Of a DNA stretch of 21,204 nucleotides, positions 2,030 to 8,091 are shown piece after piece (the stretch's first letter is position 1; each line of letters begins with the position of its first letter). The stretch is from a virus, in IMG/VR virus record IMGVR_UViG_3300042554_002499, positions 1 through 21,204 of that record; one strand, written 5' to 3'. The position numbers and the translations under genes were made by a program. Under the pieces are notes generated by a model. The model was not told where the DNA came from and did no database searches. It saw only the letters and a program-made list of their open reading frames with translations.

Positions 2030-2200
2030 TCAGTTGAAAAGACGCTTGACTTCGATGTCGCGGTTGGTTGCCGGATTGAACTTCATCAGAACGACAATGG
2101 CGTCAGGGCGCTCAGCATGGCCACGTTCGGCTGCAGCCATGGCGGCCTTGCGAGTCATCATGCCGGTCTGAGCGATGCCGTTGACTTCAAGGAAAAACAT
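2030..2200 (-). CDS. Small 56-residue protein behind its own promoter
   Basis: ATG 2200 opens a 56-codon frame (MFFLEVNGIAQTGMMTRKAA at the start, DIEVKRLFN at the end) closed by TGA at 2032-2030. I do not recognise it. The support is contextual. A recognisable promoter and structured leader lie immediately upstream on the same strand, and an intrinsic terminator follows within 8 bp of the stop, so the gene forms a one-gene transcription unit between terminase and portal. The leader closely resembles that of the plus-strand gene at 8262, including the ACCA just before ATG. The protein is moderately basic with an alanine-rich central helix. It is short, so a functional guess would be unsafe. 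Confidence 0.7.
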   Translation of the reverse strand: MFFLEVNGIAQTGMMTRKAAMAAAERGHAERPDAIVVLMKFNPATNRDIEVKRLFN

Positions 2201-2228
2201 TGGTCTTGTGTGTGGTGGGGTCGCCCCC
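2201..2228 (-). promoter_or_regulatory. Structured 5' leader: GNRA hairpin plus A/C-rich spacer
   Basis: On the minus strand GGGG-GCGA-CCCC (2228-2217) can fold into a 4-bp stem with a GCGA (GNRA-type) loop. It is followed by 16 nt of almost only A and C ending ACCA before ATG 2200. No Shine-Dalgarno is present. The arrangement is nearly identical to the leader at 8233-8261. Confidence 0.55.
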
Positions 2229-2237
2229 TGTCCCCTA

Positions 2238-2267
2238 ATTATGGGGTATACCCCGTGGGTTTGGCAA
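2238..2267 (-). promoter_or_regulatory. Probable sigma-70-type promoter with palindrome in spacer
   Basis: Minus-strand TTGCCA (2267-2262), an 18-bp spacer, then CATAAT (2243-2238) makes a good vegetative-type promoter. The expected start near 2231 lies just ahead of the leader hairpin. The spacer and first -10 base contain the perfect 12-bp palindrome GGGGTATACCCC (2243-2254), which recurs in near-identical form at two plus-strand promoters and could be an operator. Confidence 0.6.
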
Positions 2268-2294
2268 GCACCCCAGTGGCCAGTTCACAAATCG

Positions 2295-3635
2295 TCAGTA
2301 CAGCCTGATGCCAGTGCTGCGGCCCGCGTTCGCGTGAAGCGGGTTGAACTCACGCCAGACCACGTACCCCAAGGCGTCAACCATGTGATCGTGCCCAGCC
2401 TCCTTGTCCGGCTCGCCCTTCTCTGTCCAGCTCTGCAGCTCAAGGCATTCGATCAGCCGCGTGCAGCCCTGCGCCACCGTCAACCGCACCTCGCCCTTCC
2501 CGTTTTCCAGCAGTGCCTGAACAGCAGACACCCGATCACGAACAGCAGGGTTAGACCGCCCAGATTGATTGCTAAACCCGTAGGACTCCAATATTTGTAT
2601 ATCAGTCCGGGAGGCGTTGGTGGAGCGATTGCCGCCTGAGGCGTCAGGGTAAACGTAAATACGGTGATCGGGATAACGGCGTTTAATTTCTTGCGCCAGT
2701 GCATCAGTGTCATGTGCTCCGCTCACTTCATCGACGATGGCCAGTCTGTTGCCATTCCTAACACCAATCACGGCAGACATATTCGCAACGTTGAAGTCAA
2801 CGCCCACGCGCAATGGTTCGTTACTGAAGTCATTAACGGTCGCCACTACATGCTTTGCACGATCAAACCTGTCGTACACCTGGCCGGTATTTAGGTTCAC
2901 CCATTGGCCTTCCAAATACGACTTGATTAACTGCGGCGGATAATTCGCCATCAGGCTGTCAACAAACCCGTCGGGCAGGTACGGGTTGTCCATGGTGCGA
3001 GCACGGATCAGGGCCGTGTCTTCACCGGCGTTGCGGTCGAACGTATCGAATGCCCAGCCGTAACCTTCGGGCGTGGTGGCAGCGTAAAACTGCTGCACGT
3101 TGCCAGCACGAAGACGGGCCAGAGCCATTCGTGTTGCCTGCTCTGCTACCCGCTTGTTTGCCGTGTCGGCCTCGTCAAAGCCAATGGCGCAGAGGTTCTG
3201 ACCACGAATGCGGTTCCACGTCTCCATCGTCCGCAGAAGGATGGTGTGGCTGCCCTCGGCAAAGTGCAGGGTGTATTCAGGCAGCGGGCTAACGCGGAAG
3301 TCAAACGGAATCTCCCATTCTTCCAGCAGGTCATCCATGGTGCGCTGGAGGATGTCACGCAGCATCGGGGCGACAGGCTCAAACAGGGCGCTGACGTGGC
3401 CGATGTTCAGAGCTGCCATGTGAACGGCCTTGGCTACGAGGCCATGGGTTTTGCCGGCACCGAATCCGCAGACGAGGGCGAGCTTGCGGTGTTGGGTGTC
3501 ATCACAAAAGGCCAGTTGATGCGGCAGCAGCGTTTGCCGAATGCGATCTAAGGCCTGTTGGGCTGTTGGTCCTGAGGCTTGGCTTGACGGTGGATCGAGG
3601 AGGAAACCACCGGGAGCGTTGGCGAGGAGGCTCAA
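2295..3635 (-). CDS. terL: Terminase large subunit (packaging ATPase and nuclease)
   Basis: This 446-residue protein is the packaging motor that translocates DNA into the prohead and cuts the concatemer. The N-terminal ATPase shows a Walker A motif GFGAGKT (57-63), a Walker B motif with catalytic acid in AIGFDEAD (150-157) and a coupling motif TTPEG (187-191). The C-terminal RNase H-like nuclease shows acidic residues in VGVDFNV (D280), YPDASG (D331) and DHMVDALGY (D416/D420). Length fits the family. The first codon is TTG at 3635, overlapping the small-subunit TGA as TTGA, which indicates coupling; no better downstream ATG exists before the conserved core. The 3' end lies close to the separate promoter driving the 56-residue gene. 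Confidence 0.96.
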   Translation of the reverse strand: MSLLANAPGGFLLDPPSSQASGPTAQQALDRIRQTLLPHQLAFCDDTQHRKLALVCGFGAGKTHGLVAKAVHMAALNIGHVSALFEPVAPMLRDILQRTMDDLLEEWEIPFDFRVSPLPEYTLHFAEGSHTILLRTMETWNRIRGQNLCAIGFDEADTANKRVAEQATRMALARLRAGNVQQFYAATTPEGYGWAFDTFDRNAGEDTALIRARTMDNPYLPDGFVDSLMANYPPQLIKSYLEGQWVNLNTGQVYDRFDRAKHVVATVNDFSNEPLRVGVDFNVANMSAVIGVRNGNRLAIVDEVSGAHDTDALAQEIKRRYPDHRIYVYPDASGGNRSTNASRTDIQILESYGFSNQSGRSNPAVRDRVSAVQALLENGKGEVRLTVAQGCTRLIECLELQSWTEKGEPDKEAGHDHMVDALGYVVWREFNPLHANAGRSTGIRLY

Positions 3636-5952: not shown

Positions 5953-6551
5953 TGACTTTTTTCTTATCCACGGAAATGATTGATTACAAAACGCGCAACC
6001 ATCCGTTAGTCAACGGGAAGCGCACAACGAAGACGCAAATTGATGCTGAAAATGAACGACGCGCAATGTATTTGTTGTCGCAGGAATTCAGGTCAAAGAT
6101 TGAGGTTTACAGTGATGATCCGCACTGCAAAATTGACTTTGCGGCCAAATCACCAAACGGCGAAATTACCGCATTGTTTGAGTTCAAGAAACGCGGCGGC
6201 AAGCACAACGATCCGCAATACAAAAGGGGATGGTGGGTGCCGTGCGAAAAACTAGACGCACTTGTTTATTACGGTATTCACTTGAGAAAAGAACAAAACA
6301 AACCCTTGATAACAGAGCTGTATTACTGCTGGGGTTTCAACGACGGTTTTTATTACATTAACATTCAGGAGGCAATGGTTTGGCTTTGTGATTATGAAAT
6401 TGGCGGTTTAGGTTACTCGGTGAAAGAAAAGAAAAACAATGGCAAAGAGGCCGTGTATCTGGTTCCGCGCAACAATCCGTTTATTCGTGAAATAAGGGTT
6501 GGTTCAGTTGATACCCCGTGGCGATACGCTTCTAACGCGCTGGCGGCATGA
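5952..6551 (+). CDS. Putative PD-(D/E)XK endonuclease next to methyltransferase
   Basis: ATG 5952 overlaps the preceding TGA (TGATG) and opens a 199-residue protein. A nuclease-like core is visible: ENERRAMYLL with E33, then CKIDFAAK with D62, then ALFEFKKRG with E77 and K79. This order of E, D, and ExK is that of PD-(D/E)XK enzymes. The stop overlaps the start of the cytosine methyltransferase as ATGA, so the two are probably co-translated. A restriction-type partner to that methyltransferase is one reading; a phage DNA-processing nuclease is another. The gene is visibly richer in A+T than the genes before it, hinting at separate acquisition. The residue spacing is suggestive and no family name is claimed. 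Confidence 0.6.
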   Translation: MTFFLSTEMIDYKTRNHPLVNGKRTTKTQIDAENERRAMYLLSQEFRSKIEVYSDDPHCKIDFAAKSPNGEITALFEFKKRGGKHNDPQYKRGWWVPCEKLDALVYYGIHLRKEQNKPLITELYYCWGFNDGFYYINIQEAMVWLCDYEIGGLGYSVKEKKNNGKEAVYLVPRNNPFIREIRVGSVDTPWRYASNALAA

Positions 6552-7294
6552 CGAAATTAAAACTACTTGATACCTTTTCCGGCATTGGAGGATTTTCTTA
6601 CGCCGCCGAAAGAATTGTCGGTGGATTTGAGACGATTCAATTTATTGAATGGGAACCGTACTGCCAACGCATCTTGAATCAACACTGGCCGGCAGTGCCA
6701 ATCCATTCGGACATTCAAGATTTCAACCCGCCTGCATTTAGCGCCGATGTCATTTGTGGTGGTTTTCCATGCCAAGACATCAGCGTTGCCGGCAAGCAAG
6801 CCGGAATTAAACAAGGAACCCGCTCAGGACTTTTTTATGAACTCATCCGTGTCATTCGCTTGGTACGACCGAAATACGTCGTCTTGGAAAACGTCGCAGC
6901 AATCGTTACTAACGGACTTGGAGTCGTACTCGGAGAATTGGCCGAAGCAGGGTATGACGCTGAATGGTCATGCATACGCGCTTCGGATTTGGGAGCCTGT
7001 CACCGTAGAGACCGATGGTGGCTTGTTGCCTACGCCAACGGCAAGGGACCACAAGGATTCGGGGGAGCGAGTGAATTACGAAAAGCTGGCGCAGAAAAGC
7101 CGCCTTGCTGGGATCCTGGTAACCCAATGCTCAGCCCAGAATGGCGGGGCTACGTATCTAAACCCCTCCTTTTTAGAGGAGATGATGGGCTATCCAATCG
7201 GGTGGACCGCATTAGAGCACTAGGAAATTCAGTTGTGCCACAGGTGGCGGCGGTCCCGTTACGGCGGGTTTGGGAGCTGGAGTTATTGCAATGA
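6548..7294 (+). CDS. dcm: DNA cytosine-C5 methyltransferase
   Basis: The 248-residue enzyme transfers a methyl group from S-adenosylmethionine to C5 of cytosine in a specific DNA site. Motif I is TFSGIGG (9-15). Motif IV is GGFPCQDIS with catalytic Cys75. Motif VI is LENV (113-116), motif VIII is CHRRDRWWLVAYA (151-163), and motifs IX/X are NRVDRIRALGNSVVPQVA (217-234). The target-recognition segment between about 165 and 205 is very short, as in compact phage enzymes, and it may have low specificity. The start overlaps the upstream nuclease-like stop (ATGA); the stop overlaps the PP-loop gene start (ATGA). Likely roles are protection from host restriction, or pairing with the upstream nuclease. 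A second long frame lies within it. Confidence 0.95.
   Translation: MTKLKLLDTFSGIGGFSYAAERIVGGFETIQFIEWEPYCQRILNQHWPAVPIHSDIQDFNPPAFSADVICGGFPCQDISVAGKQAGIKQGTRSGLFYELIRVIRLVRPKYVVLENVAAIVTNGLGVVLGELAEAGYDAEWSCIRASDLGACHRRDRWWLVAYANGKGPQGFGGASELRKAGAEKPPCWDPGNPMLSPEWRGYVSKPLLFRGDDGLSNRVDRIRALGNSVVPQVAAVPLRRVWELELLQ
6747..7223 (+). CDS. Candidate overprinted gene inside the methyltransferase
   Basis: A 158-codon frame runs +1 relative to the methyltransferase and lies entirely within it. It does not look like random translation. It contains FHAKTSALPAS (7-17), SSWKTSQQSLL (45-55), SENWPKQGMTLNG (62-74), GGLLPTPTARD (91-101) and YLNPSFLEEMMGYPIGWTAL (137-156). I recall phage and bacterial proteins with this order of motifs (HARTSA, SWKTSQ, SETWPRSGM, LLPTPT, LNP..VE.LMGFPIGWT). 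Each motif is the +1 reading of a methyltransferase motif: HAKTS over PCQDI, SSWKT over VLEN, GMTLNG over YDAEW, GGLLPTP over RWWLVAYA, and MGYPIGWTAL over DGLSNRVDRIRA. No Shine-Dalgarno precedes ATG 6747. Function is unknown. It may instead be a database artefact of mis-framed genes. Confidence 0.4.
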   Translation: MSFVVVFHAKTSALPASKPELNKEPAQDFFMNSSVSFAWYDRNTSSWKTSQQSLLTDLESYSENWPKQGMTLNGHAYALRIWEPVTVETDGGLLPTPTARDHKDSGERVNYEKLAQKSRLAGILVTQCSAQNGGATYLNPSFLEEMMGYPIGWTALEH

Positions 7295-8091
7295 AATACG
7301 TTTTTTCTTGTGGTGGTGGTGTTCAATCAACAGCCTGCCTAGTGCTTGCGGCGCAAGGTCGTATCCCCTATCGGATTTTTATTTTTGCCAATGTTGGCGA
7401 TCAGGCCGAAGATCCCCGCACCATCAGGTATGTCAACGAAGTGCTGAAGCCCTACGCGATGCAGCACGACATCGAATGGATAGACGTACAGCGCCAGCGC
7501 CGCGATGGCACGCCAGTTGATTTGTACGAAGAATTATTAAGGCCAATTCGATCAATCGACATTCCCGTACGGATGGCAAACGGTGCGCCGGGCAACCGCA
7601 ACTGCACCGTTCATTTCAAGATCAAGCCCATTGCCAAGTGGATCCGCAAGCACGCACCTAACTGCATTCTTGGCAAGGGCATCAGCACCGATGAACCGCA
7701 CCGTGCCACGCCATCCCGCGAAGACGACGGCTACTTGTCCGCTTATCCGTTGATTGAACTCGGCTTGAGTCGCAGCGATTGCCTGCGGATTGTGCGCGAA
7801 GCTGGCTTGCCTCAACCGCCTAAGTCAAGCTGTTGGTTCTGCCCCTACAAGACAACAGACCAGTGGATCACGGCCCGACGTGAACGGCCAGAGCTTTTTG
7901 CAAAGGTGGTTGATCTTGAGCGCCATCTAAATGAAAAACGGTCCAAGATTGGGAAGGATTCGGTTTTTGTCTCCGGTGTTGGCGCCAGGAAGCTGCTGCC
8001 AATCGACAAGGCCATTCCCGATCAACTGGGTCTATTCCCAGAATGGATCGACGAACAGGACGGGTGCGAATCTGGTTATTGCATGACGTGA
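7291..8091 (+). CDS. PAPS-reductase-family PP-loop ATPase
   Basis: ATG 7291 overlaps the methyltransferase stop (ATGA) and yields 266 residues. An N-terminal PP-loop, SCGGGVQS (6-13), binds ATP and activates a substrate as an adenylate, as in the PAPS-reductase/DndC/tRNA-thiolation superfamily. Further matches to the phage branch, as I remember it, are IFANVGDQAEDP (31-42), IPVRMANGAPGNRNCT (91-106, C105), DEPHR (134-138) and PPKSSCWFCPYK (176-187, C181/C184). The cysteines could bind iron-sulfur or zinc, or carry sulfur. Sulfate assimilation is unlikely in this context. Coupling to a DNA methyltransferase makes a nucleic-acid modification role plausible but unproven. ORF finders may extend it to 7270; ATG 7291 fits the fold start better. 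Confidence 0.85.
   Translation: MKYVFSCGGGVQSTACLVLAAQGRIPYRIFIFANVGDQAEDPRTIRYVNEVLKPYAMQHDIEWIDVQRQRRDGTPVDLYEELLRPIRSIDIPVRMANGAPGNRNCTVHFKIKPIAKWIRKHAPNCILGKGISTDEPHRATPSREDDGYLSAYPLIELGLSRSDCLRIVREAGLPQPPKSSCWFCPYKTTDQWITARRERPELFAKVVDLERHLNEKRSKIGKDSVFVSGVGARKLLPIDKAIPDQLGLFPEWIDEQDGCESGYCMT

Follow-up and report, generated by a model that had tools for sequence, protein, structure and literature searches.

A second coding frame under selection inside a phage cytosine methyltransferase gene appears to hold the specificity half of the enzyme

To our knowledge, few large same-strand overlaps of two selected proteins have been established in bacteria and phages. In single-chain C5-cytosine methyltransferases, the recognition module and motif IX form a small DNA-recognising domain, and the multispecific phage enzymes SPR and phi3T have several exchangeable recognition domains in a row, placed after motif VIII and before motif IX of a single chain. 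M.EaeI is a two-polypeptide C5 methyltransferase like M.EcoHK31I, and Lee, Kam and Shaw reportedly found in 1995 that the gene for the small subunit of EcoHK31I lies inside that for the large one, in another frame. Since M.EcoHK31I and M.AquI have been described, the two-polypeptide kind counts as known. The large subunit of M.EcoHK31I holds motifs I-VIII and X together with the predicted recognition domain, and the small subunit supplies only motif IX, while in the split enzyme M.AquI the alpha chain ends after motif VIII and the beta chain carries motifs IX and X (PMC3404938). A further report describes out-of-frame HNH insertions of the ShiLan type in actinophage methylases (PMC11855218).

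The locus and its two reading frames

The window, i.e. the whole stretch of 21,204 nucleotides that was analysed, is a fragment of a tailed phage in which portal, terminase, endolysin and tail fibre genes are present. A sequence-only reading of this DNA had placed a 158-codon frame wholly inside the ORF of a cytosine methyltransferase (6548 to 7294), and this is borne out, the second frame running from an ATG at 6747 to 7223, with its TAG stop at 7221, at the proposed offset of +1. We refer to the methyltransferase as alpha and to the product of the second frame as beta. Their parts are as follows.

6548 to 7294, plus strand: alpha, a C5-cytosine methyltransferase of 248 aa with motifs I-VIII and X; no motif IX was found in this frame
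6747 to 7223, plus strand: beta ORF in the +1 frame, 158 aa, first ATG at 6747; a conserved open frame that matches phrog_1008
6747 to 6836, plus strand: N-terminal tail of beta, open in relatives, its sequence hardly conserved
6837 to 7022, plus strand: conserved N-terminal region of beta (MNSSVSFAWYD..SSWKTSQ..WPKQGMTLNG), over alpha motifs VI-VIII
7023 to 7157, plus strand: target-recognition-like module of beta (LLPTPTARDHKDSG...GGATY), one in the window and 1 to 5 in relatives
7158 to 7208, plus strand: putative motif IX of beta (LNPSFLEEMMGYPIGWT), from motif IX profiles and an excess of +1 identity
7217 to 7240, plus strand: motif X of alpha (ALGNSVVP), starting at the end of beta and placed from an alignment

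Read from stop to stop, the beta frame begins at 6678 and spans 181 codons, and is thus longer than the ATG-started ORF. The motif pairs that had been proposed, each two readings of the same DNA, are right in substance: HAKTSALPAS in the +1 frame lies over PCQDIS in alpha, SSWKTSQ over ENV, GGLLPTPTARD over RWWLVAYANGK and MGYPIGWTAL over DGLSNRVDRIRAL. KQGMTLNG is paired with EAGYDAEW, the motif as originally written, SENWPKQGM, beginning slightly upstream.

Alpha is identified as a C5-cytosine methyltransferase by its match to PF00145 (E = 4.4e-42) and by motifs I, IV (PCQ), VI (ENV), VIII and X; among the PHROGs it matches phrog_363 (E = 1.3e-68). The Pfam alignment covers only positions 2-167 of the 324 in the profile, and neither a recognition domain nor motif IX was seen in it. 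Beta matches phrog_1008 (E = 6e-21, beta 3-112 on profile positions 41-153), the family to which the similar phage proteins mentioned in the sequence-only reading correspond. Searches of beta against Pfam and NCBIfam gave no match at E up to 1, while tblastn (E up to 0.01) matched it in 188 phage records. AlphaFold gave no informative fold for beta alone (pLDDT of 46, pTM of 0.21). PDB matches of beta to a glycolipid transfer protein and a neurotoxin (E of 0.11 and above) were set aside as chance, as was a match of the S-H1 beta to Exo_endo_phos_2 (E = 0.049). The next gene in the window (7270 to 8091) is PAPS-reductase-like (phrog_424, E = 8.6e-39), and the ORF of this gene, if counted from its first TTG, begins before alpha has ended. 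At 7130 to 7175, some 28 nt upstream of the LNPSF of beta, a conserved stretch similar to LNPDW is found in alpha; it may be what is left of the beginning of motif IX, or a copy of it, in the other frame.

Selection on the +1 frame

Relatives were gathered with the methyltransferase protein as the sole query, so that these 80 loci (L008-L087) were picked by alpha alone; because only the best 80 of 151 were kept, they represent the nearer relatives of the window. WKTxQ and PTP motifs are present in the +1 frame of all 81 loci (the window and the best 80 of 151), and the end motif matches the search pattern in 76 of them, the other five comprising a variant spelling (L077) and four frames that end before the motif completes (L020, L051, L052 and L066). 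When near-identical genes (at 97% or above) were removed, 66 of the 81 remained. The +1 frame is open across codons 51-225 in 61 of these 66 non-redundant genes, compared to 0.4 expected from codon resampling that leaves the protein unchanged, and the +2 frame in none. Codons 51-96 are open in +1 in 64 of the 66 genes (16.9 expected). For the window, a +1 frame of the observed length was reached by 0 of 2000 within-gene synonymous shuffles and by 1 of 2000 codon-usage resamplings. The corresponding counts for five relatives were 0, 0, 19, 30 and 69 of 2000 within-gene shuffles and 0, 0, 0, 0 and 3 of 2000 pooled-usage resamplings; since up to 69 of 2000 shuffles match, ORF length is weaker evidence in some relatives.

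The 4-fold degenerate third bases of alpha are second positions in the +1 frame. In 1041 gene pairs with 50-65% aa identity, which as pairwise counts are not mutually independent, divergence at these sites was 0.671 upstream and 0.743 downstream of the overlap, compared to 0.399 over motifs IV-VIII, 0.465 in the module and 0.155 in the motif IX segment of beta. The constraint begins at codon 97 (window position 6837): the N-terminal tail of beta diverges by 0.47-0.54, as in non-overlapping DNA, the conserved N-terminal region (codons 97-156) by 0.17-0.41, and the strongest constraint, with a divergence of 0.03, is found at codons 205-216. The amino acid identity of the +1 frame likewise exceeds its resampled expectation in the N-terminal region (0.675 versus 0.338) and in the motif IX segment (0.726 versus 0.299). 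Downstream of the overlap no excess of +1 identity was seen (0.254 versus 0.248), and upstream of it the excess is small (0.389 versus 0.349). Because resampling ignores shared ancestry and this excess exists before the overlap, the flanks are taken as the yardstick.

Since the residues of alpha partly dictate what can be spelled in the +1 frame (EAGYDAEW permits KQGMTLNG as one of its +1 readings, and DGLSNRVDR permits MGYPIGWT), we scored synonymous shuffles for each gene. The beta profiles for the N-terminal region (bN2) and the end (bIX2) were built from 22 betas, three of them omitted from bN2, and most of the 22 are also among the loci scored with these profiles. With both profiles, the real frame of the window scored above all 100 shuffles (N-terminal HMM score 107.6 bits versus a shuffle maximum of 67.4), and, leaving the special groups aside, the same held for 91 of 91 other loci. 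In L109, 1 of 100 shuffles equals the observed N-terminal score, and in the divergent loci L102, L105, L127 and L204 the motif IX/end profile exceeds all shuffles but the N-terminal region does not. A control scan of 30 Bacteroidota loci with phrog_363-type methyltransferases found 29 without beta. The N-terminal region of beta scored above all own shuffles in none of the 30, and the sole locus with an end motif above 20 bits, L219, comes from the genome of L102, in which this motif had been found before. In ordinary methyltransferases, +1 stops are indeed frequent: 29 of the 30 Bacteroidota loci contain 8 to 35 of them and E. coli dcm contains 14. The synonymous shuffle and resampling controls thus rule out that the +1 frame is explained by forced motifs. 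Frequent +1 stops among homologues, or an absence of selection on that frame, had been named in advance as observations that would speak against a second gene; neither was found for the alpha/beta family. The open frame, the silent-site freeze and the shuffle controls all uphold the proposal that two conserved proteins share this DNA with purifying selection on the +1 frame. The +1 frame at 6747 to 7223 is a second coding frame under selection.

Motif IX, modules and arrangements among relatives

No motif IX was detected in the alpha frame of any of the 81 loci at E<0.01 with either motif IX profile. The profile from single-chain relatives, made from ten alphas of Lentzea and other actinobacteria and one ordinary streptococcal enzyme, finds 54 of the 81 beta frames at E<0.01 (the window beta at E = 0.014), and bIX2 finds 78 of the 81, partly by construction. 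Pfam and PDB sequence searches did not see motif IX in beta. The end of beta (LNPSFLEEMMGYPIGWT) nevertheless resembles motif IX of C5 methyltransferases in these profile comparisons. In Lentzea and other actinobacteria (8 loci), alpha carries both IX and X, with motif IX between the variable region and motif X, and a global profile alignment places this Lentzea-type motif on RRLTPRECFRLQGF, the motif IX of the streptococcal enzyme L110. When Lentzea-type alphas were aligned by hhalign in global mode, the C-terminal motifs were placed against Streptococcus L110 but not against E. coli Dcm. The opposite arrangement is found in L106 (Kibdelosporangium) and in the phages Samy, Catdawg and Colucci, where alpha stops after motif VIII, before IX, and beta carries IX and X (motif X was identified by HMM in L106 and by reading the translations in the three phages). 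In the 779-position methyltransferase family phrog_116, the window alpha aligns to 205-379 and the betas of L106, Samy, Catdawg and Colucci within 409-499. Because IX and X are found in either frame and the phrog_116 positions run on, the motifs keep their DNA order while the frame changes. Some betas, those of L113, L114, L118, L121 and L122, do not end with motif IX but extend across alpha motif X, with tails that resemble one another (like EMDKFQxWLxxH).

In the stretch that separates the N-terminal region from motif IX, i.e. where single-chain enzymes keep their recognition domain, betas carry modules that start with LPTPT or similar. We counted 183 modules in 30 clusters, with one to five per beta, in 77 betas; the module counts and the module selection analysis used at most 77 of the 81. 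The module strings differ in 194 of 256 gene pairs whose alpha motifs I-VIII are at least 93% identical. Across 14 module clusters, aa identity is 0.874 in beta, 0.675 in alpha and 0.687 in the third frame, beta exceeding alpha in 14 of 14, and the differences by beta codon position 1, 2 and 3 number 4763, 2531 and 10712. Within the modules, selection acts on the +1 frame, and the alpha frame is a passenger. In where they sit and how they behave, the modules resemble target-recognition domains, and they probably set the methylation specificity. A model of the Lentzea alpha superimposes on M.HhaI with a Z of 21.4 and an rmsd of 3.7 over 243 aligned positions (residues 6-339), with IX and X folded; since residues 184-249, the expected site of the recognition domain, have pLDDT values below 50, the model agrees with alpha being a passenger there. 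In L097 (Sciscionella marina), LPTPTA modules follow in frame within the alpha ORF itself, which looks like a fusion of the two frames.

We scanned the arrangement of the frames in 128 loci, of which 120 gave any match and 8 gave none (L207-L209, L211-L214 and L216, most likely due to strand orientation). It should be noted here that nearly all of the 120 were picked by beta similarity, that nestedness is for this reason not independent of beta in L088-L206 (with the exception of L126, a DNA match), and that several of the latter share contigs already in the set. In 94 of the 120, a beta with N-terminal region and motif IX is nested over alpha; 8 have motif IX in alpha and the N-terminal region in +1, in 7 alpha is overlain by the N-terminal region alone, 4 have motif IX in +1 with no detectable N-terminal region, 4 have motif IX where the N-terminus of alpha is absent from the DNA examined, and 3 are mixed (L097, L108 and L190). 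L108, from an Actinomycetota MAG, has one intact alpha/beta pair and, downstream of it, another beta of about 300 codons. This second copy contains both the N-terminal region and motif IX, none of alpha motifs I-VIII was found beneath it, and it is the only stand-alone beta encountered.

Three further loci differ in other ways. L110 (Streptococcus parasanguinis) has an alpha (2122 to 3384) with its own motif IX and a +1 ORF (2246 to 2710) that matches another PHROG, phrog_16143 (E = 3.8e-17), and has an N-terminal score of 18.8 versus a maximum of 14.7 in 100 shuffles; it possibly represents a second family of overlapping frames. In L124 (Mycobacterium phage Llama), the frame changes in alpha and beta at the same place, around 1665, and the locus is annotated as two DNA methylase genes. 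In L218 (prophage of E. coli PCP07014), alpha contains an internal stop at about 1165 and carries a pseudogene annotation, and the beta frame is broken at nearly the same place.

The annotation of both frames is uneven. Among 15 phage records, seven annotate only alpha, four only beta (Rctr197k, VB_PaD_phPA-G, Mwe-JY08 and SOVA965, the beta of SOVA965 being named 'DNA-cytosine methyltransferase'), three both (Catdawg, Samy and Colucci, with the annotated beta start downstream of the open-frame start in at least two) and one, Llama, the two pieces of an interrupted copy. RefSeq annotates only alpha in E. coli PT62. On these counts, the suspicion that databases hold mis-framed methyltransferase genes is partly correct. 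Alpha-only records annotated as complete enzymes would on paper lack what seems to be the specificity half, and some records label that half a methyltransferase. Because of such alpha-only or mislabelled beta annotation, predicted methylation motifs and defence or counter-defence calls would be incomplete.

A two-subunit enzyme and its relation to known systems

Taken together, the two halves of one DNA-marking enzyme appear to be encoded by the same stretch of DNA, where the +1 frame, frequently overlooked in databases, seems to supply the exchangeable part by which the sequence to be marked is selected. We consider it highly probable that the locus encodes a two-subunit C5 methyltransferase with alpha and beta in overlapping frames. 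Alpha (6548 to 7294) would bind the cofactor and catalyse the reaction with motifs I-VIII, including PCQ and ENV, plus motif X. Beta (6747 to 7223, possibly from 6837), with its own N-terminal region, one LPTPTA module and motif IX, would be translated by internal initiation, assemble with alpha into an active heterodimeric methyltransferase and set the target sequence. Methylation may then protect the phage DNA against host restriction. As the beta modules of relatives appear to be exchanged as cassettes, the same alpha could be redirected to new sites.

Three other explanations were weighed. Production of beta as an alpha-beta fusion by programmed +1 ribosomal frameshifting, rather than by internal initiation, seems unlikely to us. 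It would fit with an N-terminal tail that is open but unconserved and with the lack of a Shine-Dalgarno match at the common upstream Met of beta in the 17 loci compared (in the window, at ATG 6747). However, a Met codon upstream of the conserved region is available in 64 of 66 genes. The alternative start at ATG 6837, with AGGA 7 nt upstream, is common to only 4 of the 17 loci, and conservation of start codons and Shine-Dalgarno sequences across relatives indicated no clear beta start. That the +1 frame is not a gene at all, its motifs being forced by the amino acids and codon usage of the methyltransferase, is scarcely credible: the permitted readings named above and shuffles reaching 67 bits with the N-terminal profile show how far forcing can go, yet the real frames outscore every shuffle in the window and the 91 further loci, +1 identity within the overlap is far above its resampled expectation, 29 of 30 control loci lack beta, the modules are selected in +1 only and the 4-fold divergence of alpha is low within the overlap.

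It is also very improbable that beta is an unrelated, wholly overprinted protein with a function of its own, for instance in anti-restriction or regulation. The conserved N-terminal region over motifs VI-VIII would suit such a protein: it shared an ORF with alpha motifs I-VIII in none of the 120 loci with matches, and it is retained even when motif IX is present in alpha, as in the Lentzea-type loci. Against it stand the C-terminal half of beta, whose motif IX is in frame in single-chain relatives, the joint presence of IX and X in the betas of L106, Samy, Catdawg and Colucci, and modules in the position of the recognition domain of single-chain enzymes. The proposal that the +1 protein was born by overprinting is not supported for beta as a whole, its second half (LPTPTA modules and motif IX) looking like a displaced methyltransferase part; it is still reasonable for the N-terminal region over motifs VI-VIII, but for no other part. 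This region, which has no single-frame counterpart in the loci read, is the one candidate for true overprinting. Two processes thus seem to be combined: old parts (modules and motif IX) are now read in +1, and the N-terminal region is possibly overprinted. Since Lentzea-type loci have IX in alpha yet keep the N-terminal region of beta, supplying motif IX cannot be the sole role of beta; this persistence suggests that the region has a role of its own, perhaps docking the modules on alpha.

Extending the two-subunit reading, we find it somewhat more plausible than the contrary that this is a widespread phage design in which a generic catalytic chain is overwritten with an exchangeable specificity chain, the cassettes evolving only in the hidden frame, motifs IX and X migrating between frames and free betas serving as extra specificity subunits. 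A shared alpha with extra free betas would then parallel, in C5 form, the division of labour of HsdM and HsdS. Since each frame seems to encode one half of an enzyme, a simple methylation assay could put the overlap to the test, and the frame-switching relatives offer a natural series for studying the division of a protein between frames.

Among the open-access papers listed in literature searches, none announced a nested beta in phages in its title or the opening of its abstract, and we found no account there of its phage-wide spread, a hidden-frame module array, a frame-switching series or a stand-alone beta. An HNH or intein insertion of the ShiLan type was rejected for the window locus, the insertion and the family being different; that case likewise places a second frame in a phage methylase gene, but as an inserted homing endonuclease and not as an enzyme part. 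Beta belongs to the same family as phrog_1008 (the Colucci beta scores 352 bits), although it contains none of the catalytic motifs that the label 'DNA methyltransferase' of this family implies. Compared by description, the window resembles M.EcoHK31I in having an alpha without detectable motif IX and a beta with it, and differs in that the modules of this family are selected only in the small-subunit frame and are often multiple and shuffled in relatives. The published placement of the predicted recognition domain of M.EcoHK31I in its large subunit counts against our assignment. The division described for M.AquI is matched by Samy, Colucci, Catdawg and L106, whereas in the window motif X lies in alpha rather than in the small subunit and beta is fully nested. 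The phage-wide spread and the modular specificity frame look new. The module array itself is like that of SPR and phi3T, but it is read in the +1 frame here and within a single chain there.
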